52,832 nt of DNA, taken from contig VXME01000060.1 in the NCBI GenBank assembly GCA_009861545.1, positions 1 to 52,832 on the forward strand. The letters run 5' to 3'. The DNA comes from Acidobacteriota bacterium (GTDB lineage Bacteria > Acidobacteriota > Vicinamibacteria > Vicinamibacterales > UBA8438). Of the stretch, positions 44,334-47,539 are shown piece by piece (positions within the stretch are counted from its first letter, which is position 1; every line of letters begins with the position of its first letter). The notes under the pieces are model-generated. The model was given only the letters and a program-made list of their open reading frames with translations. It ran no database searches and was not told the DNA's origin. The translations under genes were made by a program, and so were the position numbers.

Positions 44334-44633
44334 CTAGCCTTCCGGGGCCGGCGCCGACGCCTTCCGCATCCGCTTCTCGAGCCGCGACTTGTGCCGCGCC
44401 GCCGCGTTGCGGTGGATGACGCCCTTGCCCGCGAGCTTGTCGATCAGGGCCGACGTCGCGCGGATCGACTCGCGCGCGCTCGACGCCTGGTCCTCGTTCC
44501 CGCCGTCGACTGCGCCGATGGCGCTGCGCGCCGCACGGATCGCGCGGCGTACCCGGCTCTTCATGCGGTTGTTTCTGTCCCGGCGCTGGAGACTCTGCTC
44601 GTGGGCCTTGATCGCAGACTTGTGGTTCGCCAT
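44334..44633 (-). CDS. rpsT: 30S ribosomal protein S20
   Basis: A 99-residue S20: MANHKSAIKAHEQSLQRRDR, then NRMKSRVRRAIRAARSAI and the conserved AGKGVIHRNAAARHKSRLEK. It binds 16S rRNA. ATG 44633 starts the known sequence. Its stop lies nine bases from the holA stop on the other strand. The 127 bases before it (44634-44760) contain a hairpin of the upstream gene but no clear promoter. Confidence 0.96.
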   Translation of the reverse strand: MANHKSAIKAHEQSLQRRDRNNRMKSRVRRAIRAARSAIGAVDGGNEDQASSARESIRATSALIDKLAGKGVIHRNAAARHKSRLEKRMRKASAPAPEG

Positions 44634-44760: not shown

Positions 44761-45225
44761 CTACCTGCCGTGCGACGAGTAGACCTCCGCGTTGCCGTTT
44801 CTCTCGAATGCGATGACGTCGTAGCGCTGTATCGGCCGGCCCGGCACTTCCATGCCCGGAGACCCGATGGGCATTCCCGGCACCGCGAGTCCGGCAACGC
44901 GCGGACGCTCGATGAGCAGGCGCGCGATGTCCGCGGCCGGCACGTGGCCCTCGATCACGTAGTCGCCGACGATGGCGGTGTGACACGACGACAGCGCCGG
45001 GGGAACGCCTGCGCGCCGCTTGAGCGGCACTACGTTGGGGACGTCCGTCATCTCTACGTCGAAGCCGTGTTCCTGCAGGTGAACCACCCACTTGACGCAG
45101 CAGCCTCAGGTGGGGGACTGGAAGACCTTGATTGTCTCCGCATGCTGCTGGCCGTGTGCAACGCCCGACGACACCATCAGGCCGGCTGCCAGCAGCAGAC
45201 CGAGCGCCAGTACGAGATTTCGCAT
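44761..45225 (-). CDS. DUF411 family protein with an in-frame UGA at the conserved metal/redox cysteine (selenocysteine candidate)
   Basis: Reading through one TGA gives a 154-residue secreted DUF411 protein. Residues 1-25 are a signal peptide (RNLVLALGLLLAAGLMV, ending VAHG). Then comes TIKVFQSPT, TGA as codon 40 (45108-45106), and GCCVKWVVHLQEHGF. Family members normally read SPTCGCCxKW, so TGA replaces exactly the first Cys of CxCC. Downstream, SSCHTAIVGDYVIEGHVPA and GLAVPGMPIGSPGME are DUF411 hallmarks, with no further stop until 44763. AAGGAG lies seven bases before ATG 45225. A hairpin follows the TGA at SECIS distance. DUF411 proteins are linked to metal (copper) handling. If UGA is not decoded, or is a sequencing error for TGC, this is a normal DUF411 gene or a pseudogene. 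Confidence 0.7.
45073..45100 (-). promoter_or_regulatory. SECIS-like hairpin downstream of the in-frame UGA
   Basis: On the minus strand CAAGTG and CACCTG pair (one A-C mismatch) around the loop GGTGGTT; a lower CTG/CAG helix adds three pairs across a three-base bulge. The loop begins 17 bases after the UGA and contains GGU, close to the position and sequence of the GGU in the E. coli fdhF SECIS loop. Folding was judged by eye only. Confidence 0.45.
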
Positions 45226-45362: not shown

Positions 45363-46217
45363 TCATGGTGGCCCTTGCGGCCCGGACCACGCGACCTCCC
45401 CGAGGATCCGGTCGTCTTCGGCCACCGTGCGGGGCTCGTGGGCGGGATTGTCGCTGGCCAGCAGCCAGCGGGCGCCGGACTGCCGCAGGCGCTTGACGAC
45501 GAGCCCCGCGTCGGTGCGGACCGCGAACAGGCGTCCGTCCAGCGGTTCGGTACGGCCGGCGTCGATCGCGACGAGGTCCCCGTCGCGAATCGTCGGCTCC
45601 ATCGAATCGCCCACCGCACGGACGCAGGTGAGGCGTTCCGGCCGCGCCCAGGTCGCCAGCGCGTCCGTCGCAACGGCGATCGACATCTCGGGCGACTCGT
45701 CGAATACGATTTCGCCGGAGCCCGCCGCGAGCCGGACGTCGGGAGCGAACGGGATCATTGCCACGGCGCTGTCGCGCCCCGTGCGAGCGGACGATCGTCC
45801 GTCTGACGCCGGGCCGGAAATCAGCGCCACGGCTGTCGCCGTCCGGTCCACGAAGTCCTGTACGAGGCCGACGCTTTCGCGCAGTCTCGATGCCAGCGCG
45901 TCCCTGTCCAGCGCCTCGAGTGCGTCGGCGACGCTGGCATCTCGCGGGAGGCCGAGTGCGTCGGCGATCGCCGGCGGCAGTCCCGGTCCCGTCGACGAGG
46001 GCGCCCGGGCCGGGCCGATGTAGAGCTCGAGGTCCAGCGCGGAGGCCATCAGCTCGAGGGTCGTGCTGCGCGCGGCGCGGCCCTGCATGATGCTTCTCAA
46101 TTGTCCGACGGGGATGCCGGTGCGAAATGAGAACGGCCGCAGACCCTCTGCCGCGACCCGCTGGCGCACGGCCTGCCGCAGGTAGTCGATGCCGTCGGAA
46201 CGTGTCACTACTGACAC
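45363..46217 (-). CDS. HTH/S24-peptidase transcriptional repressor, copy 1 (LexA/CI-like)
   Basis: A 284-residue protein with an N-terminal helix-turn-helix (FRTGIPVGQLRSIMQGRAA, about residues 25-45) and a C-terminal S24 domain: CVRAVGDSMEPTIRDGDLV holds the catalytic Ser and LVVKRLRQSG the Lys. An Ala-Gly in VRLAAGSGEIVF could be the self-cleavage site. Such proteins repress until RecA-stimulated self-cleavage after DNA damage. I choose GTG 46217 because MSVVTRSDGIDYLRQ aligns with the paralogue; the frame extends upstream without similarity to it. The start lies inside an inverted repeat. Confidence 0.85.
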   Translation of the reverse strand: MSVVTRSDGIDYLRQAVRQRVAAEGLRPFSFRTGIPVGQLRSIMQGRAARSTTLELMASALDLELYIGPARAPSSTGPGLPPAIADALGLPRDASVADALEALDRDALASRLRESVGLVQDFVDRTATAVALISGPASDGRSSARTGRDSAVAMIPFAPDVRLAAGSGEIVFDESPEMSIAVATDALATWARPERLTCVRAVGDSMEPTIRDGDLVAIDAGRTEPLDGRLFAVRTDAGLVVKRLRQSGARWLLASDNPAHEPRTVAEDDRILGEVAWSGPQGPP

Positions 46218-46218
46218 G
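46201..46218. promoter_or_regulatory. inverted repeat over the start of S24 copy 1 (candidate operator)
   Basis: CGTGTCA and TGACACG flank a four-base centre (CTAC), an 18-base palindrome covering the GTG start. The same geometry occurs at the start of the second S24 gene. It could be an autoregulatory operator, but both starts encode similar residues (VSVVTR), so coding constraint may explain part of the match. Confidence 0.45.
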
Positions 46219-46305
46219 ATATCAGGAATCGAGCGGGTGGGGTCGGGTTCTCGGAACACCCTGCATGCTGAACGCGGCGGCGCTCGGTAGCGGGGCAGCT
46301 CTTCT

Positions 46306-47163
46306 TCAGCCGTCGCCGCGGCCCCGCGGGCCGCACCACGCGACCTGCCCGAGAATCCGATCGTTCTCGGCCACCGGATGCGATGCATGGGTACGGTTGT
46401 CGCTGGCCAGCAGCCAGCGCCCGCGGCTCTGCCGCAGGCGCTTGATGACGAGACCGCTGTCCGTCCGAACCGCGAACAACTGTCCGTCCAGCGGGTCGGT
46501 CCGGGCCGGGTCGACCACGACGAGGTCGCCGTCGCGGATGTTGGGCTCCATGGAGTCGCCGGCCGCGCGCACGCACGTCAGGTGCTCGGGCCGCGCCCAG
46601 GACGGCAGGGCGTCGGCGGCGACGGCGATTGACACCTCCGGCGATTCCTCGAACACCACCTCGCCGGTACCCGCCGCGAGCCGCACTTCCGGAGCGAACG
46701 GGATCATGACCACGCCGCTCTCCGAGGCCTCGCCTGCGCGCGAACGCCCACCGGAGACGAGGCGGGGAATCAACGCCGCCGCGGTCGCCGCCCGTTCCAT
46801 CAACTCCTGCACGAGTCCGATTCCCTCGCGCAGCCTCGACGCCATCGCATCCTTCTTGATCGCGTCGAGAGCGTCGTCGATCGTGGCGTCGCGCGGCAGG
46901 TCGAGGGCCCGCGCGATCTCCGAGGGGAGCCGCGGCCGGGTCGTCGAATCCGCCCGCGCCGGGCCGATGTAGAATTCCAACTCCAGGACGGACGCGATCA
47001 ACTCGAGGGTCGTGCTCCTGGCCGCCCGCCCCTCGATCACGCTCCTCAACTGTCCGAGCGGGATGCCGGTGCGGTGCGCGAACGGACGCAGTCCCTCCGC
47101 GTCGATCCGCTGCCGAACGGCCTGCCGGAGGTAGTCGATCCCGTAGCGTGTCACGACCGACAC
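46306..47163 (-). CDS. HTH/S24-peptidase transcriptional repressor, copy 2 (paralogue)
   Basis: A 285-residue protein very similar to copy 1 along its whole length. HTH region HRTGIPLGQLRSVIEGRAA; S24 site CVRAAGDSMEPNIRDGDLVV with Ser, and LVIKRLRQSRGR with Lys; possible cleavage site in VRLAAGTGEVVF. GTG 47163 gives MSVVTRYGIDYLRQ, matching copy 1. It is upstream of copy 1 on the minus strand with an 88-base gap, so they may be co-transcribed. Its start is 52 bases from the divergent HTH-like gene. Confidence 0.85.
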   Translation of the reverse strand: MSVVTRYGIDYLRQAVRQRIDAEGLRPFAHRTGIPLGQLRSVIEGRAARSTTLELIASVLELEFYIGPARADSTTRPRLPSEIARALDLPRDATIDDALDAIKKDAMASRLREGIGLVQELMERAATAAALIPRLVSGGRSRAGEASESGVVMIPFAPEVRLAAGTGEVVFEESPEVSIAVAADALPSWARPEHLTCVRAAGDSMEPNIRDGDLVVVDPARTDPLDGQLFAVRTDSGLVIKRLRQSRGRWLLASDNRTHASHPVAENDRILGQVAWCGPRGRGDG

Positions 47164-47164
47164 G
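47147..47164. promoter_or_regulatory. inverted repeat over the start of S24 copy 2 (candidate operator)
   Basis: CGTGTC and GACACG flank a six-base centre, again 18 bases long and covering the GTG start, in the same register as the element at 46201. Shared consensus TGTCAC-N3-CGACA/TGTCAC-N2-CTGACA supports a recognition site of these repressors. Confidence 0.45.
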
Positions 47165-47189
47165 ATACACGGAATCACTTGCACGCACG

Positions 47190-47203
47190 TGCCATTTGTG
47201 GCA
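47190..47203. promoter_or_regulatory. inverted repeat between the divergent regulators
   Basis: TGCCA and TGGCA flank TTTG in the 52-base divergent gap between S24 copy 2 and the small HTH-like gene. A TTGCAC at 47179 may be a -35 box for the plus-strand gene. A regulatory role is likely from position only. Confidence 0.35.
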
Positions 47204-47215
47204 TGCTTCCGTGCC

Positions 47216-47539
47216 ATGGACGACACGGTTCGGCGGCTCGTGGCGCTCTGCGGCCTGTTCGCCGAGAGCACCGGGCGGAGCATCTCTACCGTCTCCCGCT
47301 ACGCGACGGGAAGCGGCGAAACCATCGCGCGGCTGCAACGCGGCCACGCCATCACGACGCGGCGCGCGGAACGCGCCATCCGCTTTCTCTCCGACAACTG
47401 GCCGGCGCCGGTGGAGTGGCCGGCAGACATTCCGCGCCCCGCCGTATCTCCAGGTCTCGCCGATGAGCCGGAACTGCCGGTCGCGGCCCTCGGCGACGGC
47501 AGGGACGCGCTGTCCGTGGAACCGCTGAGCAGCGGCTGA
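47216..47539 (+). CDS. small helix-turn-helix-like protein
   Basis: A 107-residue protein transcribed away from the S24 genes. Residues 10-45 (LFAESTGRSISTVSRYATGS, then GETIARLQRGHAITTRRAER) resemble a phage-type XRE DNA-binding domain, followed by FLSDNWPAPVEWP and a Pro-rich tail. Together with the S24 proteins it recalls a CI/Cro-type arrangement, though no prophage genes are present. ATG 47216 was preferred; GTG 47189 would place the start inside the inverted repeat. Confidence 0.6.
   Translation: MDDTVRRLVALCGLFAESTGRSISTVSRYATGSGETIARLQRGHAITTRRAERAIRFLSDNWPAPVEWPADIPRPAVSPGLADEPELPVAALGDGRDALSVEPLSSG

Follow-up and report, generated by a model that had tools for sequence, protein, structure and literature searches.

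Does a DUF411 gene interrupted by a single in-frame TGA, found in an Acidobacteriota bacterium, encode a selenoprotein? The gene lies in a 52,832-nucleotide contig (VXME01000060.1), the whole stretch of DNA analysed here and called the window. It is read on the minus strand, in a single frame throughout, from an ATG at 45225 with an AGGAG ribosome binding site upstream to a TAG stop at 44763-44761, and the TGA at codon 40 (45108-45106) was the sole interruption of the DUF411 frame. The first-pass annotation had described a good ribosome binding site and a signal peptide and DUF411 body in one frame broken only by this TGA, and its coordinates were right; its proposal that the codon specifies selenocysteine (Sec) gained support from machinery genes, recurrence, a hairpin and selection (see below). 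The features concerned are the following:

44761..45225, minus strand: DUF411/CopG gene predicted to encode a Sec protein, 154 aa when the UGA is counted as a residue (frame, Pfam and PDB match).
45106..45108, minus strand: in-frame UGA, codon 40, predicted Sec at position 1 of the CxCC motif (U-G-C-C) (frame, relatives).
45151..45225, minus strand: N-terminal hydrophobic signal peptide of about 25 codons, end approximate (read from the sequence).
45060..45108, minus strand: SECIS-like hairpin from the UGA on, with the apical stem at 45091-45075 and GGU from 45088 (folding, covariation).
44983..44985, minus strand: codon of Cys81 (SSCHTA), fourth among the conserved thiol or selenol positions (residue number from the translation; alignment to SCHT of 6wis).
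44334..44633, minus strand: ORF directly downstream of the DUF411 gene, which we take to be rpsT (ribosomal protein S20; ORF list, named by sequence recognition).

With the UGA taken as a residue, the window protein scored 95.4 bits against the Pfam DUF411 model (PF04214; gathering score 27), and a PDB search returned the DUF411 protein of 6WIS/6WJE as its only match (E = 1.9e-29), homologous over 120 residues. The solved homologue 6WIS aligned across the whole mature window protein, and the UGA fell exactly on the first Cys of its CGCC, as the first-pass annotation had supposed. The CxCC motif was present, as were other conserved Cys and Met residues: U-G-C-C, SSCHTA and PGMPIGSPGME aligned with 6wis. 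In CopG, CxCC serves as the binding site of a tetranuclear copper cluster (PMC7558416). The window protein resembles CopG (PF04214; PDB 6WIS, 6WJE) in the aligned CGCC, SCHT and PGMP..GSPGME segments, and differs from it in that the first Cys of the copper-cluster CxCC is encoded as UGA (Sec). Two points are new relative to the first-pass annotation: the family is that of CopG, with a known copper-cluster structure, and the Sec form occurs across many phyla.

Of 396 genomes searched in the phylum, 42 carried DUF411 genes, 43 in total; another two with only weak DUF411 matches were left out of the count. At the first Cys, the codon was TGC in 24 genes, TGT in 3 and TGA in 16, with no other codon found. 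The TGA genes had the UGCC motif in 15 of 16 cases and a UPCC variant in one (L176). In L176 (genome G362), this second form of the Sec motif reads GPG-U-PCC at about base 340. Relatives thus kept the UGA at this codon, among them an independent close relative of the window gene, L082, with the same TGA. All 16 UGA genomes of the phylum had selA above the curated cut-off versus 17 of 26 Cys-only genomes (Fisher p = 0.009, computed with the first 15 UGA genomes), and every selA-less DUF411 genome in the survey had the Cys form. Between the window gene and L082, the part after the UGA showed dN of 0.066 and dS of 0.434 (dN/dS ~0.15), which indicates that the downstream part is constrained as protein by purifying selection.

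A DNA pattern for PTUGCCxxW was also scanned over GTDB species genomes, some of which overlap with the phylum survey. Among the 117 pattern matches listed, 93 were UGA-DUF411 loci, so that there are at least 93 of these; as the pattern demands TGA, its counts say nothing on the Sec:Cys ratio. The UGA-DUF411 genes among the matches listed belonged to Acidobacteriota, Gemmatimonadota, Chloroflexota, Rokubacteria/Methylomirabilota, Tectomicrobia, Myxococcota and Pseudomonadota, and two Helicobacter species were also present. A selA gene above the cut-off was found in 27 of 30 sampled UGA-DUF411 genomes versus 6 of 16 genomes with non-DUF411 chance matches (p = 0.0003). Two of the three exceptions had tRNA-Sec and selB. 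The third (L104, in G417), a single-contig Gemmatimonadota MAG, carried a UGA-DUF411 gene with no selA and a C-terminal fragment only of selB, a state for which loss or misassembly is a possible cause.

The first-pass annotation had suggested a search for sel genes in the source genome (6.35 Mb; completeness 99%, contamination 2.6%), and this recovered selA (E = 3e-159), selC (a tRNA-Sec whose anticodon is UCA), selD and part of selB. Only the N-terminal part of selB was found, its frame running off the end of contig C24; the wing domain of SelB (PF09107, the SECIS-binding part) was not found in the assembly, which can be explained by the early end of this contig. A second partial selA-like match (L002, G000:C112:1797-2210, model positions 314-454) is perhaps contamination or a fragment.

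The GGU-loop hairpin at SECIS distance that had been described earlier was recovered by folding: starting at the UGA, it had -19.9 kcal/mol (z = -1.7 versus dinucleotide shuffles), and its apical GGU began 17 nt past the UGA, close to the spacing in E. coli fdhF. An Rfam scan of the window gave no SECIS match. We compared 42-nt windows of 93 Sec and 27 Cys genes with within-gene synonymous-codon shuffles. In the Sec genes, folding energy dipped clearly where the 42-nt window began between 0 and 12 nt from the UGA (at +6, mean z = -0.87, s.e. 0.12), whereas the 27 Cys genes showed no such dip in the same windows (mean z = -0.27, s.e. 0.19) and had their own folding dips further downstream, at +66 to +114. 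By phylum, the mean signal was -1.4 in Acidobacteriota, -1.3 in Pseudomonadota and -1.0 in Rokubacteria, and weaker in Gemmatimonadota (-0.5). A SECIS-type hairpin just 3' of the UGA was thus present in the window's group and most phyla, unlike Chloroflexota (z = -0.23) and Myxococcota (-0.09), where the signal was not seen; the Chloroflexota genomes sampled had selA despite lacking it. No single consensus structure covered all Sec genes, the hairpin occurring in several registers. Compensatory changes, another of the checks suggested earlier, were sought in 39 sequences from taxa with the window's hairpin register, and covariation was present: in the 12-pair helix 72% of cells were paired, versus 65.5% when shuffled (s.d. 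1.0) and 26-44% when slid, and the covariation score was 0.160 versus 0.099 shuffled (s.d. 0.008). Note that these taxa were picked after viewing the folds, so that the covariation is supporting and not independent evidence.

On the conserved UGA, the open and selected frame, the hairpin signal, the machinery genes and the homology to CopG, we consider it very probable that the gene at 45225..44761 encodes a selenoprotein of the DUF411/CopG family. Among the alternatives, the one that survives best is that the UGA is read without selenium, either because a near-cognate tRNA for Trp or Cys suppresses it in the ordinary way or because it acts as a regulatory read-through stop. Bacterial UGA stops are leaky, and G417 has the UGA without selA; against this, the UGA was found only at the reactive Cys, UGA genomes have selA while the selA-less genomes of the phylum survey are all of the Cys form, and a hairpin directly follows the codon in most clades, all of which makes suppression very unlikely. 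Still less probable is a start behind the UGA (e.g., GTG 45087) that would give a truncated protein of 108 residues and leave the upstream frame incidental: the ORF list does hold 44761..45087 with a GTG start, which gene callers would tend to annotate, but such a product would lose the signal peptide, the first beta strand and the CxCC motif, though the family is conserved up to the UGA. A TGC-to-TGA change in a pseudogene, by base error or recent nonsense mutation, which the first-pass annotation had held to be the main alternative, is practically excluded by recurrence and downstream purifying selection: one base separates TGA from a Cys codon and in G206, a close relative with matching gene order, the codon is TGC, but the same UGA recurs in 16 of the 43 genes from the phylum and in at least 93 pattern-scan loci, the frame behind it is under the constraint given above, and no other stop or missense codon occurred at the site, where an error or pseudogene would give other codons too.

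For the selenoprotein, the standard bacterial route would apply: SelA would make the Sec-tRNA with selenophosphate from SelD, SelB would deliver the selenocysteinyl-tRNA to UGA codon 40 under the direction of the hairpin that immediately follows within the coding sequence, and Sec would stand in for the first Cys of CxCC. The protein would probably be exported, as its signal peptide suggests, and work in the periplasm as a thioredoxin-like protein. By homology, Sec would replace one ligand of the CopG-type copper cluster, and its selenolate, together with the neighbouring thiols, may bind Cu(I) and, as in CopG, help in the redox handling or detoxification of copper; in such a site Sec, whether as ligand or as redox residue, would be softer and more reactive. 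We lean towards a copper role for the Sec-DUF411 protein. The neighbours of 14 Sec-DUF411 loci, read by eye for copper genes, showed no consistent copper context; hints near these loci were scattered, namely a CsoR-like regulator by L121 and cysteine-rich proteins by L043 and L114.

A recent inventory (PMC13188914, 2026) lists 119 families or subfamilies of prokaryotic selenoproteins, and DUF411/PF04214 is absent from it. NCBIfam release 20 held no fitting model for Sec-DUF411, and full-text literature searches of incomplete coverage, joining selenoprotein or selenocysteine with DUF411, COG3019, PF04214 or CopG, returned nothing relevant. Within the literature covered, Sec-DUF411 is therefore unlisted as a selenoprotein family. 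It resembles the bacterial thioredoxin- and glutaredoxin-like UxxC selenoproteins in having Sec at the N-terminal place of a CxxC-like motif, a thioredoxin-like fold and a hairpin behind the UGA, but DUF411 is not among the families of PMC13188914. Sec at a presumed copper or metal site is shared with the CopZ-like (2Fe-2S)-binding selenoprotein and the SO_0444 Cu/Zn efflux transporter selenoprotein, which are other families, told apart by their listed domain identifiers (PMC13188914). Tentatively, as a combined picture whose chances we put a little short of even, Sec-CopG may be a widespread unlisted family with a selenolate ligand of the copper cluster (a natural copper-selenolate site), engaged in copper redox handling and with repeated Sec/Cys exchange between lineages. 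The bacterial selenoproteome would gain a broadly distributed family and selenium would be linked to copper handling; UGA-DUF411 genes in many genomes are probably annotated as truncated or as pseudogenes. With the natural Sec/Cys pairs and the solved copper-cluster structure, what selenium contributes to a metal-thiolate site can be tested directly.

A tree of 122 proteins, poorly resolved, needed about 12 Sec/Cys changes, at least 4 of them forced by well-supported branches. In the family to which the window gene belongs, the two Sec forms had the Cys form L004 as their sister, and the gene order DUF411-rpsT was common to the window, L004 (Cys form) and L082 (Sec form). One betaproteobacterial contig (L142) carried two Sec-DUF411 genes, one of them on a very long tree branch. 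A plasmid search gave 3454 records bearing DUF411, counted irrespective of the codon at the first Cys. In Helicobacter brantae and H. cholecystus (L069, L110), the Sec-DUF411 gene lay upstream of a purM-like gene, and both genomes had selA. In the window, two tandem paralogous repressor-like genes (~45363..46388 and 46306..47283, minus strand), both with S24/LexA-type C-terminal domains, adjoined the Sec-DUF411 gene upstream.
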